DNA of 37,568 bases, taken from the NCBI GenBank assembly GCA_009783985.1, contig WQVM01000007.1:1-37568 (forward strand), in the 5' to 3' direction. Source of the stretch: Bacillota bacterium. GTDB lineage: Bacteria; Bacillota; Clostridia; Christensenellales; Pumilibacteraceae. The notes under the pieces are model-generated. The model did not search any database, had not been told where the DNA came from, and saw only the letters and a program-made list of their open reading frames with translations. The position numbers and the translations under genes are program-made. Below, in pieces: positions 11,251-35,298 of this stretch. Numbering within the stretch: position 1 is the stretch's first letter; every line of letters starts with the position of its first letter.

Positions 11251-11283
11251 TAAAAACTTGCAAAAACTCTAAGCCTCTATAAT

Positions 11284-11373
11284 GTCATTGCGAGGAGCGA
11301 TAGCGACGAAGCAATCCCATGTGAAATGTCCTATTCGTGGGATTGCTTTGTCGCTATCGCTCCTCGCAATGAC
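11284..11373. repeat. F-family palindrome (GTCATTGCGAGGAGC)
   Basis: A long near-perfect inverted repeat, about 35 bp per arm. It opens GTCATTGCGAGGAGCGATAG and closes with the complement CTCCTCGCAATGAC. Close copies lie at 21288-21377 and, diverged, at 35190-35298. Fragments lie at 9581, 12828 and inside spoIIIAE. This word is widespread in many bacterial genomes. Confidence 0.9.
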
Positions 11374-11438
11374 AATCAATTTGTATTCAACACAAATTGA
11401 GCAATCCGTTACATGACAGGCTGTGCTAAGTTCTAATC

Positions 11439-12490: not shown

Positions 12491-12830
12491 GTCATTAGGC
12501 ATTGTTCAAAAGGAATGGAAAACAATCCTTATAGGAAATAGTCATAAAGTAAATTATATTCCCAAAAAACAGGGTGTCATTTCGACCGAAGCGGAGAAAT
12601 CTCCTTAAAAACTGTATTATAACACCGCTAATGAGGAGATTTCTCCGCTTCGGTCGAAATGACACCCTTATGATATATACCTCACACAATATACTCGTTT
12701 TGAACAATGCCTCTTAAAAAGAGGGGAATAGAGATAGCTTTGAATCCAAATTCCCCTCTTTTAAGAGGGATGGCGGCACAGCCGACGGGGTGTTTATTAC
12801 GAGGTAAGCATTTTCCGAACAACTCTATTG
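12491..12830. mobile_element. Composite MITE-like element with palindromic cargo (H and J)
   Basis: The left end GTCATTAGG (12491-12499) leads into AGGCATTGTTCAAAA, whose exact complement is at 12698-12712. Inside is the H palindrome (12571-12668, GTGTCATTTCGACCGAAGCG on one arm). Then come a TTAAAAAGAGGGGAAT/ATTCCCCTCTTTTAAG pair and GGATGGCGGCACAGCCGACG. The right end is AACAACTCTATTG (12818-12830), followed by an F fragment. The same end sequences bound the element at 34142-34359 around a different palindrome. It encodes no protein. The rest of the 488-bp gap holds only the CTTGTCC motif. Confidence 0.6.
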
Positions 12831-13742: not shown

Positions 13743-13834
13743 CGAATAACGAAATAATGAATAGCGAATAACGGTTGACTTATTTTTTTACCCGTCATTC
13801 ATTATTCGTTATTCATTATTCGTTATTCGTTAGT
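13743..13834. repeat. Heptamer-armed palindrome, family E
   Basis: Left arm GAATAAC/GAAATAATGAATAGC/GAATAAC and right arm TATTCGT/TATTCAT/TATTCGT/TATTCGT. It begins at the spoIIIAC stop and ends 3 bp before the spoIIIAD start codon. Confidence 0.88.
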
Positions 13835-13836
13835 TT

Positions 13837-14220
13837 ATGATTATTTTTCAGATAGCGGCAATAGCGATTGTAACGGCAATATGCGTAGCGGTACTCCGTG
13901 ACGCCAAAAGTGAAACCGCTTATCTTGTGGGAATTGCGGGCGGTCTTATCATACTTATAATGGTGCTTGACCTTGCAATCGGAATATTTGACGCAATGGA
14001 ACGAATAGTATCACGGAGCGGTCTTGACGGTAATGTGGCACGGGCGGTTATACAGATAGTAGGGATAGGGTATATTACCGAATTTGCGGCGGGGATATGT
14101 GAGGATTGCGGAAGCAAAAGTTTGGCGGACAAGCTGATATTAGGCGGTAAAATTGTTATTATGGTAATAGCAATGCCGATTGTGATAACATTATTTGAGA
14201 CTATAGCGGGATTACTGTAA
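13837..14220 (+). CDS. spoIIIAD: Stage III sporulation protein AD
   Basis: 127 residues, the family length. Four hydrophobic helices are seen: IIFQIAAIAIVTAICVAVLR, YLVGIAGGLIILIMVLDLAI, an IQIVGIGYITEFAAGICEDC segment and IVIMVIAMPIVITLFETIAG. The GYITEFAAGICEDCGSKSLA stretch is a strong SpoIIIAD signature. It is a channel subunit in the mother-cell side of the engulfed forespore membrane. There is no Shine-Dalgarno; the ATG is 3 bp after the family E palindrome. A G-family repeat follows before spoIIIAE. Confidence 0.94.
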   Translation: MIIFQIAAIAIVTAICVAVLRDAKSETAYLVGIAGGLIILIMVLDLAIGIFDAMERIVSRSGLDGNVARAVIQIVGIGYITEFAAGICEDCGSKSLADKLILGGKIVIMVIAMPIVITLFETIAGLL

Positions 14221-14228
14221 AATTATAC

Positions 14229-14281
14229 AATAAGGGTAATTGTTATTCGGGCGGTCGAGGACGCCCGCCCCCTACGATTGG
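14229..14281. repeat. G-family repeat
   Basis: AAGGGTAATTGTTATTCGGG then CGGTCGAGGACGCCCGCCCC and CTACGATTGG. It lies between spoIIIAD and the true spoIIIAE start, inside the upstream extension of that frame. Confidence 0.85.
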
Positions 14282-14323: not shown

Positions 14324-15793
14324 ATGCCAAAAAAAATTACAAGTATAATATTTGTTTTGCCGCTCTTATTAAGTATATTTTTGGGAGTGGCTTTTAGCAA
14401 TGTTAAAACAGCACAAGCAGATTACAGTGGACAAGATATGGCATATGTACATATGTGTGAGTGTAGGGGGCAAGAACTTTCGGTTTTGTTTGGCACAGAT
14501 TCTGAAGCCCTATTGGGAGTGTTCTGTTCGTGGGATTGCGGAGCCTGCCCTGAGCTTGCCGAATGGGTCGCTACGCTCCTCGCAATGACAGGAACAGACA
14601 ACCTAGGCATACTTCTCGCCCAAGATAACTTATCCTTAGCTATTCCATATTCCATATTCCATATTCAATCCACTTCCACCTCTTCCGACAACAGCGACTT
14701 AGAACGACAGCTCGAAACAGAGATTAACGATATGCTTGTAGGGATTGACCTTAGCGAATTAGAGAATTATCTCAATCAACTGGAGGCGGCGCAGAGGGAG
14801 TTATTTGATAATCAGAGTTTTGGTGCTATGGTCAGGCGGATTCTAAACGGTGATAACAGCGTTGATTATGATAGCTTTATTTCGTTTGTTATAGGTTTGA
14901 TTTTCGGGCAAATTGGCATTTATGTTCCGCTTGCGATTTCTATTGTTGCCATTGCTTTGACTATGAGTATATTGTCATCAATCAAAGGCAAATTTGCGTC
15001 TAAATCGGTCGAGAATGTGGCCCACTTTGCATCACTCTCGATAGTGATAATCTTGGTCACGACCAATGTGGTTATACTGATGGGGCGAACGGTGCGGATT
15101 ATTAACGGGTTGCAGACGCAGATGAATATCGTCTTTCCGATTTTGCTGACGCTTATGACAACGGTCGGGGCGACTAATTCGGTGGCGGTTTATCAGCCAT
15201 CCGTGTTAATTTTAAGCAGTTGGATAATCAATCTTATTACAATAGCCGTACTGCCGACTTTTATTTTTAGCTTTGTATTTGCGGCGGTGGGAAGTTTGAG
15301 CAAAGACCACCCTTTAGGCAAATTATCTGACTTTTTTGCGAGCGTATGCAAATGGATACTTGGGGTTGTTTTCTTTTTGTTCTTAGCCTTTTTGAGTGTG
15401 CAAGGGGTAACGGCTGGGATATATGACGGCGTATCTATAAGGACGGCAAGGTTTGCTATAAGCCGCTATGTGCCTATAATCGGCGGCTACCTGTCAGAGG
15501 GGTTTAACTTAATGCTTGCGGGCGGTGTACTAATCAAAAATGCCGTCGGTCTAGGTGCGGTAATCTTGCTTATAGTATCCATACTACCCACACTAATCAA
15601 CATAATCGTATTTTCGCTAGCCCTAAAACTTACCGCCGCCTTATGCGAACCCCTAGGTGACAGCCGTATACCTAAATACCTCAACAGCGTATCAAAACAT
15701 GTTACCATACTTGCGGCAATATTACTCGGTGTGGCATTCTTGTACTTTATTTTTTTGATGTTGATTATCTTTACAGGCAATATGATATTATAG
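14324..15793 (+). CDS. spoIIIAE: Stage III sporulation protein AE with repeat-derived N-terminal insert
   Basis: 489 residues from ATG 14324. The frame is open back to 14240, but that part is a G-family repeat. A signal peptide (LPLLLSIFLGVAFSN...AQA, about residues 1-32) is followed by an unusual stretch (33-120). The recognisable SpoIIIAE begins at DLSELENYLNQLEAAQ. Eight or so membrane helices follow, with family landmarks such as FPILLTLMTTVGATNSVAVY, LSDFFASVCKWILGVVFFLF and SVQGVTAGIYDGVSIRTARF. It is a polytopic subunit of the feeding channel. Residues 66-91 are encoded by an F-family repeat fragment and 107-115 by ATTCCAT heptamers. The usual AF, AG and AH genes do not follow. Confidence 0.93.
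   Translation: MPKKITSIIFVLPLLLSIFLGVAFSNVKTAQADYSGQDMAYVHMCECRGQELSVLFGTDSEALLGVFCSWDCGACPELAEWVATLLAMTGTDNLGILLAQDNLSLAIPYSIFHIQSTSTSSDNSDLERQLETEINDMLVGIDLSELENYLNQLEAAQRELFDNQSFGAMVRRILNGDNSVDYDSFISFVIGLIFGQIGIYVPLAISIVAIALTMSILSSIKGKFASKSVENVAHFASLSIVIILVTTNVVILMGRTVRIINGLQTQMNIVFPILLTLMTTVGATNSVAVYQPSVLILSSWIINLITIAVLPTFIFSFVFAAVGSLSKDHPLGKLSDFFASVCKWILGVVFFLFLAFLSVQGVTAGIYDGVSIRTARFAISRYVPIIGGYLSEGFNLMLAGGVLIKNAVGLGAVILLIVSILPTLINIIVFSLALKLTAALCEPLGDSRIPKYLNSVSKHVTILAAILLGVAFLYFIFLMLIIFTGNMIL
14459..14669 (+). repeat. Repeat fragments inside the spoIIIAE coding sequence
   Basis: Within the gene, GAGTGTAGGGGGCAAG (14459-14474) resembles a G-family arm. 14519-14591 matches one arm of the F palindrome (GTGTTCTGTTCGTGGGATTG ... 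GCTCCTCGCAATGACA) with CCTGAGCTTGCCGAATGGG nested in it. 14642-14669 is ATTCCAT in tandem three times plus ATTCAAT. All keep the frame open. Confidence 0.75.
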
Positions 15794-16028: not shown

Positions 16029-16439
16029 ATGAAAAAGAAACTAATGTCCATAGCCATTGTATTGGGATTAATATTATCTGCGGGTGCATTCGTAGTCGCT
16101 TGTGGTGGTGGCAACAATGTAACCTTGGCTGATCTAGAGGGCGAGTGGAGGCTTGAGCGTTTTCACATTAGTGGTACAACAACGCCAACATGGCTGTCAT
16201 CAATTACTTTTGATAATGAGGGCAACTTTACAGGTGTTCTTACTATCGGTGGCGGAGAGGTCACTGGAACAGCGACACTTGATGGCAGAAGAATCCGCTT
16301 TAATAGCAATCTTCCGGAAAAAAATGCGTGGTTTTCTACTTACGACTATAGAGTCCGCTTTGTAGGCAACAATATGCAGTGGGACTGGCATTCGCTCGGA
16401 AGCCGTCAAAATACAGCATTTGTTTGGAACAGAGTATAA
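16029..16439 (+). CDS. Small lipoprotein with lipocalin-like domain
   Basis: 136 residues. A type II signal peptide (KKKLMSIAIVLGLILSAGAF) is followed by VVAC, with the Cys at about residue 25 as the lipidation site, and then GGGNN as a linker. The mature part (LEGEWRLERFHISGTTTPTW, ITFDNEGNFTGVLTIGGGEV, TGTATLDGRRIRF) is a run of beta strands starting with a GEW motif, as in lipocalin-like stress or surface proteins of Clostridia and Bacteroidetes. Ligand is unknown. Shine-Dalgarno AAAGGAG lies 8-10 bp before the ATG. It has its own promoter, a structured leader and a terminator at 16458-16495, so it is monocistronic. Confidence 0.8.
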   Translation: MKKKLMSIAIVLGLILSAGAFVVACGGGNNVTLADLEGEWRLERFHISGTTTPTWLSSITFDNEGNFTGVLTIGGGEVTGTATLDGRRIRFNSNLPEKNAWFSTYDYRVRFVGNNMQWDWHSLGSRQNTAFVWNRV

Positions 16440-18885: not shown

Positions 18886-20691
18886 TTACTTGCTAGTTTC
18901 GCTTTTCTCAAAGTCGTCTAGTTCTTTGAGCCATACTTCGCCGCTGAAGTCGGTTTTGATTTGTAGGTTGGTTAGGTCGTGGGGGGTGATTTGTATGCCG
19001 TCGCAGCCGAAGAGTCGTTTGAATTGTTGGGAGAAAAATCGGGTTAGGAATTTTCGCATTGTGGCTAGTATGACCTTGCGGTCGTATTCGGGATATGCGG
19101 TGTAACATAGGTTGATAGTATCCGCTACACCATGTTGCTTGCAAATCATATAGTAGAGGAAAAAGTCGTGTAACTCGTAAGGTCCGATTTCTTTTTCGGT
19201 GTCTTGATTTTGCTTTAGTTCGGGAGATATGGGTGTGGCTAAGATGTCGGTCATTACGGCGGATATTTTTTTGTCAGTTGTCGGCTTAGTAGCGTAGTGC
19301 CTAAGATACGCACGGATAAAAGTTTTTGACAAAGAGGAGTTAGGGTTATATTGTGCTAGTTGGTCACCGCCGTAGGTACTCCAACCCAAAGCAATCTCAG
19401 ACAAATCCCCCGTGCCCAGCACCAACGCTCCGTGCATATTGGCGAGGTCGAGTATGATTTTGGTGCGTTCACGGGCTTGAGTGTTTTCGTACGCTATATC
19501 CGCCTTGCCGTTGTGACCTATGGCTTTGAGGTGCGTAGTAACAGCATTGGTAATAGGTATGTCTAAACCGGTGACACCGTAGAGTTTGATTAGCTTGTCA
19601 GCGTTGTTAGCGGTACGACTGGATGAGGCAAGCCCGCCCATTGTTACACAAATAATATTTTTTGGCGAGAGCTTATATTTTTTTGCCATATGGGCGCAAA
19701 GACAAAGAGTCATTGCCGAGTCAAGTCCGCCTGATAAGCCAAAAATAACTTTGGTGACATTGATATGCTCCATACGACCCTTGATGCCACGGACGAGTAT
19801 GTCCATAGCCTCATCAAAGTGGGCAGGGTTAGTTGGCACATAGGGTAGGCGAGTAGTAGTGGTTAGTGGATAGTGGATAGTGGATAGTTGGGGGTTGAGG
19901 GGAGGTGAGTTGCTAGCGGTAAGTTGTAAGTTACTTACTGTAATTGGTAGGTCATCGCCTGTTGATGCGGATATGATATGTCCGTTTTGAGCAAAAATCT
20001 TATCGCCGCTGTATACGGTATTGCTCACGCTCATTCCCGCTCCGCCGCTAACATACGCATAAGTGCAGCCTAATTCTTGTGACATATGAGCAATTTTTGA
20101 TTGACGATTATCAAAAGAACCTATCAGAGCTTGTGATGCCCCTAGATTGATAATAAGGTTAGTGCCATTTTGGACGAGCTTAAGAGAGTGGGGTGTAGGG
20201 CTATCAAAATCTTCTCCAAAAACAACCCCTAAACGGGTCTTGTCTATGTCAACAATTGGATAGTCAGTAATAGGGACAAGTGTATCGCCTATAACAATAT
20301 TTGTCTTAGGGAAAGTTTCGCCGTGTTGCTTGTCTATAGTTAGCGCAAGTACTTTACCGTTTTTTATAAATGCCGCCATAGTGCGGATTTGGTTATCACA
20401 GCTGTTATCAATTATCTCTATAGGTAATGACAAAATAACAAGAGCATTATGCTTAGTGTTTTGAGCGGTCAAAGTTTCTAGTGCCAGATGGCAACTTTTT
20501 TGAAAATCACCAAAATGCCCCATATCCTCTGCAAAACCGCCCGAGATACATAACAAAGGCAGAGCGACAATACTTGCGCCTGCTTTAGTAGCGTCTGTTA
20601 TCGCTTTGGATATAGTGTCCGTATTGCTGATTACAGCACCCAAACGCAAATTAGGGGTAGCTAAGGCTATTTTTAATTGACCTGATTTCAT
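18886..20691 (-). CDS. nadE: NAD synthetase with degenerate glutaminase domain
   Basis: 601 residues. The C-terminal half (about 290-600) is the ATP-pyrophosphatase-type synthetase that amidates nicotinate adenine dinucleotide. The P-loop is FGLSGGLDSA (SGGLDS at 320-325), followed by GTGDLSEIALGWSTYGGDQL, and all key blocks are kept. The N-terminal half is a nitrilase-fold glutaminase, but its catalytic residues are lost. The usual FPELC block is LPLLC (Leu 46 for Glu) and the usual ICED block is FGED (Gly 159 for Cys). The enzyme likely uses ammonia. Residues about 264-280 in the linker are encoded by heptamer repeats. Promoter TTGCCA-18-TATAAT on the minus strand (20729-20700) leaves almost no leader. 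Confidence 0.93.
   Translation of the reverse strand: MKSGQLKIALATPNLRLGAVISNTDTISKAITDATKAGASIVALPLLCISGGFAEDMGHFGDFQKSCHLALETLTAQNTKHNALVILSLPIEIIDNSCDNQIRTMAAFIKNGKVLALTIDKQHGETFPKTNIVIGDTLVPITDYPIVDIDKTRLGVVFGEDFDSPTPHSLKLVQNGTNLIINLGASQALIGSFDNRQSKIAHMSQELGCTYAYVSGGAGMSVSNTVYSGDKIFAQNGHIISASTGDDLPITVSNLQLTASNSPPLNPQLSTIHYPLTTTTRLPYVPTNPAHFDEAMDILVRGIKGRMEHINVTKVIFGLSGGLDSAMTLCLCAHMAKKYKLSPKNIICVTMGGLASSSRTANNADKLIKLYGVTGLDIPITNAVTTHLKAIGHNGKADIAYENTQARERTKIILDLANMHGALVLGTGDLSEIALGWSTYGGDQLAQYNPNSSLSKTFIRAYLRHYATKPTTDKKISAVMTDILATPISPELKQNQDTEKEIGPYELHDFFLYYMICKQHGVADTINLCYTAYPEYDRKVILATMRKFLTRFFSQQFKRLFGCDGIQITPHDLTNLQIKTDFSGEVWLKELDDFEKSETSK
19854..19905. repeat. Family C heptamers inside nadE
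   Basis: On the plus strand, GTGGTTA/GTGGATA/GTGGATA/GTGGATA/GTTGGGG/GTTGAGG. The same unit forms the palindrome at 8503-8608. In nadE it encodes NPQLSTIHYPLTTT in the linker between the two domains. Confidence 0.85.
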
Positions 20692-21284: not shown

Positions 21285-21287
21285 AAT

Positions 21288-21377
21288 GTCATTGCGAGGA
21301 GCTTTAGCGACGAAGCAATCCCACGAATAGAACACTTTACATGGGATTGCTTCGTCGCTTTCGCTCCTCGCAATGAC
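21288..21377. repeat. F-family palindrome
   Basis: GTCATTGCGAGGAGCTTTAG to CGCTCCTCGCAATGAC, arms of about 35 bp, near identical to 11284-11373. It begins directly after the T-run of the rplI terminator. Confidence 0.92.
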
Positions 21378-21429
21378 ATTAGCCCTAAGGCTCGCTATAG
21401 CTTAATGGAATTAGGGAGTAATACATAAT

Positions 21430-35091: not shown

Positions 35092-35189
35092 ATTAAGTAG
35101 TGTGTACTATATTATAAGAATAAATTTATATAAAAGTATTTGAGATTTAATTAGAGCTAACTTTGTGGAGAACAGCTTGCGTGTCCATC

Positions 35190-35298
35190 GTCATTGCGAG
35201 GAGCATAGCGACGAAGCAATCTGCCAAAGACAAAAAAGTAGTTTGTACGCCAAATATGAATTTTTCTAGGGCAGATTGCTTCGTTCCTCGCAAAGACG
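35190..35298. repeat. F-family palindrome, diverged
   Basis: GTCATTGCGAGGAGCATAGC and GAAGCAATCTGCC face GGCAGATTGCTTCGTTCCTC around a 45-bp centre unlike the other copies. The arm has point changes (GCAAAGACG), so it is probably an old copy. Confidence 0.82.

Follow-up and report, generated by a model that had tools for sequence, protein, structure and literature searches.

Palindromic repeat DNA within the coding sequences of spoIIIAE and other conserved genes of a Bacillota bacterium

We suggest that mobile palindromic repeat DNA has been inserted in frame into the sporulation gene spoIIIAE of a Bacillota bacterium, and that this block is translated as a non-conserved linker of the protein, a reading that we hold with considerable confidence. 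The block lies directly behind the signal-peptide-like N-terminus and is a composite, made up of one half of a palindromic repeat here designated F, an array of heptamers and probable pieces of a second repeat, designated G. The same F element is found in frame within 13 other genes with Pfam support in the sampled parts of the genome, among them housekeeping genes, and where homologues were compared the corresponding residues are missing from them.

Materials and methods

The window, by which we mean the whole stretch of 37,568 nucleotides that was analysed, is one contig (C7) of a draft genome of 1.6 Mb, 88% complete and assembled in 110 contigs. A search of GTDB records with the SpoIIIAE protein returned two loci in Bacillota MAGs with the isolate names Th196P3bin37 and Lab288P1bin16, and names of this type presumably belong to termite-gut studies. 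Repeats were counted in 56 stretches around F copies, the window included, which amount to about 393 kb of the 1.6 Mb when overlaps are counted. The stretches take in all exact F-core places and part of the places with mismatches, and the 73 F places reported below are those inside these 56 stretches. Gene families were assigned from Pfam, and finer gene names are our own reading.

SpoIIIAE matches were obtained in 54 of 61 genomes, the genome under study included, and those given loci were aligned. The comparison has 31 rows, in which GTDB records L070 and L071 carry the same proteins as L025 and L031, so that 29 sequences are distinct. For AroA, 24 same-family genomes were searched and 20 used, those left out having one half absent or weak matches; for RNase R, 22 genomes of the family had matches and 20 were used, G015 (one bridging match) and G019 being excluded. 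The relatives in which empty sites were sought for SpoIIIAE, AroA and RNase R all belong to other genera.

Results

The spoIIIAE gene (14324–15793, forward strand) is preceded by spoIIIAA, spoIIIAB and spoIIIAD and encodes 489 residues. Its protein matches the Pfam profile PF09546 (Spore_III_AE) over residues 165–484 with 215 bits, against a cut-off of 27, which places it in that family. At 14324–14419 it begins with a signal-peptide-like segment (hydropathy peak at residues 1–29) that ends in AQA before D33, the cleavage site having been chosen by eye, and the conserved part, which runs from a DLSELE motif (residue 142) through the last residue of the Pfam domain, is encoded at 14747–15775. 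In the relatives the motif, DLSxLE, likewise follows the hydrophobic core of the signal peptide, at a distance of 17–44 residues (median 28, 31 sequences), as against 116 residues here. The surplus of about 88 residues is encoded by roughly 14420–14694 on the forward strand, the edges being approximate as they derive from this comparison of spacing. The original prediction had made the repeat origin of the segment depend on its absence from close relatives, and the block is indeed absent from all 31 aligned SpoIIIAE sequences, which come from other genera; nor is there an insert in the SpoIIIAE of G018 (locus L015), a relative rich in the F arm.

Ribosome-binding sites vary along the window. 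Shine-Dalgarno-like sequences are lacking ahead of the starts at 13837 (spoIIIAD), 14324 (spoIIIAE), 11464, 12933 and 9696, and a clear GGAG precedes the genes at 16029, 21558, 24686 and 30094. A search for a solved structure of a SpoIIIAE relative found none, and an AlphaFold model made from three sequences was set aside (mean pLDDT 57.7, with values below 50 over residues 1–80 and 85–123). An Rfam search of the window gave no matches.

The clearest component of the block is the F element at 14509–14590 on the forward strand (nhmmer E 5e-7, from a profile built with the block masked). It is a half-palindrome, consisting of the spacer and the right arm with no more than a trace of the second arm; 13 other places in the genome match 59–73 nt of it at 90–97% identity. 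Nested in the arm is a further word (14540–14566, forward strand), which occurs in 13 places of the sampled stretches, spoIIIAE included. Its copies differ in their flanking sequence, and since this nested variant is present in at least 13 places with differing flanks it appears to have spread as one unit. At 14642–14669, on the same strand, stand three copies of ATTCCAT and one of ATTCAAT. The dimer of ATTCCAT was met at just one other place in the sampled 393 kb, so the exact array is no common word of these stretches. Period 7, with differing units, is a favoured class of short tandem repeat there: nine tandem arrays of three exact copies have this period, as against none or one for each of periods 5, 6 and 8–12, and six for period 4. 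Further period-7 arrays lie at 13800–13836 and 19864–19872 of the window and elsewhere, and ahead of spoIIIAD a heptamer-like array extends almost to the ATG.

The frame is open from the signal peptide through the block into the Pfam domain, and most of the five cysteines in the mature N-terminus come from the repeats. The F arm, the word nested within it, the heptamers and their common reading frame were all part of the original prediction and were recovered here. The claim of a G-like arm fared less well. The left-hand candidate, AGTGTAGGGGGCAAG at 14460–14474 on the reverse strand, is doubtful: 21 of 500 shuffles align as well to the G consensus, and 4 of 500 to a hand-built G variant. A better candidate, which the prediction had not named, is CGCCCAAGATAACTTATCCTTA at 14617–14638, also on the reverse strand, equalled by none of 500 shuffles and likely to be a G fragment. 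The G profile HMM (E 10) reports neither segment, and both pieces are thus identified from local alignments, which we grade as weak or moderate.

Outside genes, F occurs in the window as full palindromes at 11283–11375 (the reference copy, nhmmer E 3e-27, which folds as one long hairpin) and 21287–21378 (E 6e-29), and as a more diverged palindrome at 35188–35298 (E 1e-12). Predicted fold energies are -76 kcal/mol at 11283 and -22.5 kcal/mol in spoIIIAE. F joins two CGTC-like REP units head to head, a short spacer lying between them, and the nested word may be present or absent. The arms begin with an xGTC tag: among 127 arms this is TGTC in 50, CGTC in 35 and AGTC in 24, and 18 have other starts. 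A CCCA end, which corresponds to a CCA-like unpaired tail, is seen in 90 of 109 complete arms, and paired head-to-head palindromes make up 45 of the 83 groups of arms in 375 kb. Of 96 arms, 61 adopt the three commonest folds, in which an outer stem of 5 bp, ATTGC/GCAAT, is followed by internal loops; the A/T start of this stem is no independent observation, as arms were picked by a pattern starting ATTGCGA. The innermost loop has four bases in 43 of the 96 arms and three in 18.

The F core (at most one mismatch) was found at 122 places in this genome and 154 in G018, and at moderate or rare frequency in the other genomes of the family sample, which numbers 61. In G018, which belongs to another genus, the approximately 154 core places often form direct tandem arms instead of palindromes. 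The peptide encoded in the F frame has matches in two of the 61 genomes; it lies in long open frames only in the genome under study, and the matches in G034 fall in short frames.

An intact G repeat occupies the gap between spoIIIAD and spoIIIAE (14230–14277, forward strand, nhmmer E 9e-13). G contains GTAGGGGCG, and its consensus ends in CGCCCCTACGA, which is TCGTAGGGGCG on the opposite strand. On contig C65 an inverted pair of G repeats adjoins a gene for an IS200-like transposase (PF01797), the association seen between GTAG REPs and RAYT genes; we judge by eye that this gene is a RAYT and not another IS200-like transposase. It lies at L137:1524–2033 on the reverse strand, beside a gene for an Obg-like GTPase, and two G-like stretches fall within its own open frame. 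Contig C13 has another gene for an IS200-like transposase (L136:3076–3507), which apparently lacks a normal start. The RAYT-like gene is a candidate spreader of G and perhaps of F too; no link between F and either of the two PF01797 genes was found, the stretch around the C65 gene holding G and no F. Another sequence again forms an inverted repeat of 98 bp in the spoIIIAA–spoIIIAB gap (12571–12668), with arms of 49 nt that are 88% complementary.

Within the sampled 393 kb, 14 of the 73 F places lie in frame in Pfam-supported genes, those for SpoIIIAE, UvrC, MurC, AroA, TyrA, PyrD, a tRNA-dihydrouridine synthase (Dus), TilS, RNase R, a U32 peptidase, a SPASM radical SAM protein, a YgiQ-like radical SAM protein, a DUF2229/BcrAD activase and an MFS transporter. 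The whole palindrome is present in AroA, MurC, UvrC, RNase R, the activase and the SPASM protein, and a single arm in PyrD, TyrA, the MFS transporter and SpoIIIAE. The YgiQ-like gene (contig C4, L062:759–2630, reverse strand) also has what appears to be a second, shorter remnant of an F arm, with the peptide SLRATAKQS. An open frame with F on contig C2 was excluded from the 14 as it belongs to no Pfam family; chance matches to the F core in a dihydroorotase-like gene and in the gene after PyrD in L108 were dropped, as were spurious open reading frames on C50, C24, C37 and C94 and at the N-terminus on C92. The original prediction had pointed to a permissive, exported site; such a site does not explain the insertion, since the carriers include the enzymes MurC, AroA, UvrC and RNase R.

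In comparison with solved homologues, a stretch of 49 residues in AroA corresponds to 8 in 3rmt, one of 78 in UvrC to 6 in 3c65 and one of 76 in MurC to 20 in 9ir5, and PyrD has about 16 residues more than a solved structure. The AroA insert (median 42 extra residues) and the RNase R insert (median 31 extra residues, or 93 nt, the length of one F) are each missing in 20 of 20 relatives measured. The resemblance to the Rickettsia inserts that had been proposed for spoIIIAE is thereby supported in kind, the same element standing in frame in 14 genes and its inserts missing from relatives and solved homologues.

F places abutted on both sides, on one strand, by at least 70 open codons gave 14 rows, 11 of which are continuous open frames. 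The other three are antisense readings of MurC and of AroA, and C4:638, an F place beside a terminator-like hairpin that we judge by eye to be intergenic. With 11 continuous and three accounted for, no gene in the sample is clearly broken by F, which is the pattern expected from selection against loss of frame. The share of places within genes is 2 of 107 for G and 14 of 73 for F (p 8e-5), a comparison possibly biased as the stretches were chosen for F; the two G places, on C65 and C37, were entered by hand, and the latter is without Pfam support. An excess of stop codons in G finds no support as the cause of its rarity in genes, the open-frame shares being similar (0.55 vs 0.49), and the idea that F copies in genes are mostly shortened was likewise unsupported (lengths under 80 nt were found for 6 of the 14 copies in genes and 14 of the 59 others; Fisher p 0.19).

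Discussion

The closest description of an F-like element is that of the CGTC REPs. In the parts of Di Nocera et al. (2013, PMC3733652) that define this superfamily, its units have a CGTC, TGTC or CCTC tag, a stem of 8–9 bp starting with A and T, a loop of 4–5 bases and a short unpaired tail that fits CCA; they are mostly head-to-head dimers and have no dedicated transposase. The class includes RPE-4 and RPE-6 of Rickettsia conorii, which are equated with CGTC-4 and CGTC-1, respectively, and dRS3 of Neisseria. The same account places both CGTC and GTAG REPs inside genes, where dimers encode 20–30 residues and clusters 43–82. F shares with the CGTC REPs the outer xGTC tag, the CCA-like tail, the head-to-head dimers and the high copy number, and both are partly in frame in genes, including excinuclease ABC genes there and UvrC here; a stem starting in A and T may be a further likeness. 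F differs in its outer stem of 5 bp followed by internal loops, in an AGTC tag (24 of 127 arms), which those parts of the paper do not list as a variant, and in its host, a spore-forming member of the Bacillota; the words Firmicutes and Clostridi are absent from the main text of that study. Since F misses the published stem length, we term it CGTC-like and keep it out of that family. G resembles a GTAG REP with its RAYT in containing GTAGGGGCG and in the inverted pair beside the IS200-like gene on C65 (compare the GTAG REPs in the sections cited of PMC3733652). It differs in being rare in genes here, spoIIIAE holding only fragments.

In its mode of insertion F is like the Rickettsia palindromic elements (RPEs), which, as outlined in portions of PMC10969869 and of Delihas (2007, PMC2759123) that refer to Ogata et al. 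(2000, 2002), lie in frame in numerous metabolic genes that are unrelated to one another. F too is inserted in frame in several unrelated conserved genes, and the insert is missing from homologues. Host and sequence differ, and the likeness is drawn from the mode of insertion, not from sequence homology; moreover the spoIIIAE insert is only a half-palindrome, mixed with other repeats. The ERIC and RU elements described within enterobacterial genes in portions of Delihas (2007, PMC2759123) are likewise small mobile repeats fused in frame, although element and host are unrelated. Inverted repeats also occur inside protein-coding genes of Nematomorpha mitochondria, a likeness by description drawn from part of PMC6649704, and a mitochondrial one.

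We infer mobility of the repeats, translation of the block, tolerance of it without a function, and an order of events as follows. Some enzyme would have spread F copies through the genome, and copies landing in genes would persist only if the frame stayed open and the protein tolerated the insert. Just behind the signal peptide of SpoIIIAE an F arm, the heptamer array and probable GTAG-tagged G pieces would have accumulated, and the resulting block would be translated as a long non-conserved linker at the N-terminus of the mature protein.

The alternative that SpoIIIAE starts further downstream, the repeats being an untranslated leader, is unlikely. The start at 14324 is without a Shine-Dalgarno-like sequence, and many N-terminal REPs are possibly extragenic, to follow a passage of Di Nocera et al. 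(2013, PMC3733652); against this, such a start would forfeit the in-frame signal-peptide-like segment that precedes the block and is placed as in relatives, and F is in frame in the middle of the protein in many other carriers. Decay of spoIIIAE, with repeats piling up under relaxed selection, would fit their presence in the gaps of the spoIIIA operon, yet we think it less probable still, given a SpoIIIAE domain that scores 215 bits and has no frameshift, an intact SpoIVA, and F copies in such housekeeping genes as AroA and MurC. Removal of the inserts after transcription or translation, by ribosome bypass or splicing, would leave the proteins normal, and full F copies could form very stable hairpins (-76 kcal/mol at 11283). 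This is very improbable: removal would not need F-bearing genes to be in frame and free of stops across the insert, as they are, and the half-palindrome in spoIIIAE folds far more weakly (-22.5 kcal/mol). That repeat copies were misjoined in a metagenome bin is barely credible even for a draft in 110 contigs, where assemblers fail at repeats, for in the tested carriers both flanks belong to the same gene with the frame kept, and F copies differ from one another by several percent.

In-frame palindromic inserts are already known, as RPEs, intragenic REPs and ERIC fusions. The host lineage and the set of genes appear to be new, as does a composite block in a protein of the sporulation channel; in the open-licence literature we found no earlier report of the peptide, of intragenic palindromes in Firmicutes, or of REPs from termites or Clostridia. 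In-frame insertion of repeat DNA into spoIIIAE and its fellow carriers extends the Rickettsia phenomenon of protein-coding palindromes to a spore-forming lineage of the Bacillota, and on a large scale within one small genome. It also carries a warning for annotation, as such inserts imitate domains and disrupt alignments. Because the relatives of some carriers have solved structures, both the manner in which palindromic DNA enters essential genes in frame and leaves them working and the question of whether function is gained become testable. There is a small chance that the block has been put to use. On that reading the SpoIIIA channel would have gained a new functional segment in the mature N-terminus of SpoIIIAE, which would be exposed beyond the membrane, and the REP peptides in MurC, AroA, UvrC and other carriers would be raw material rather than tolerated junk. 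If so, REP-derived peptides would be a lineage-specific raw material for protein evolution.
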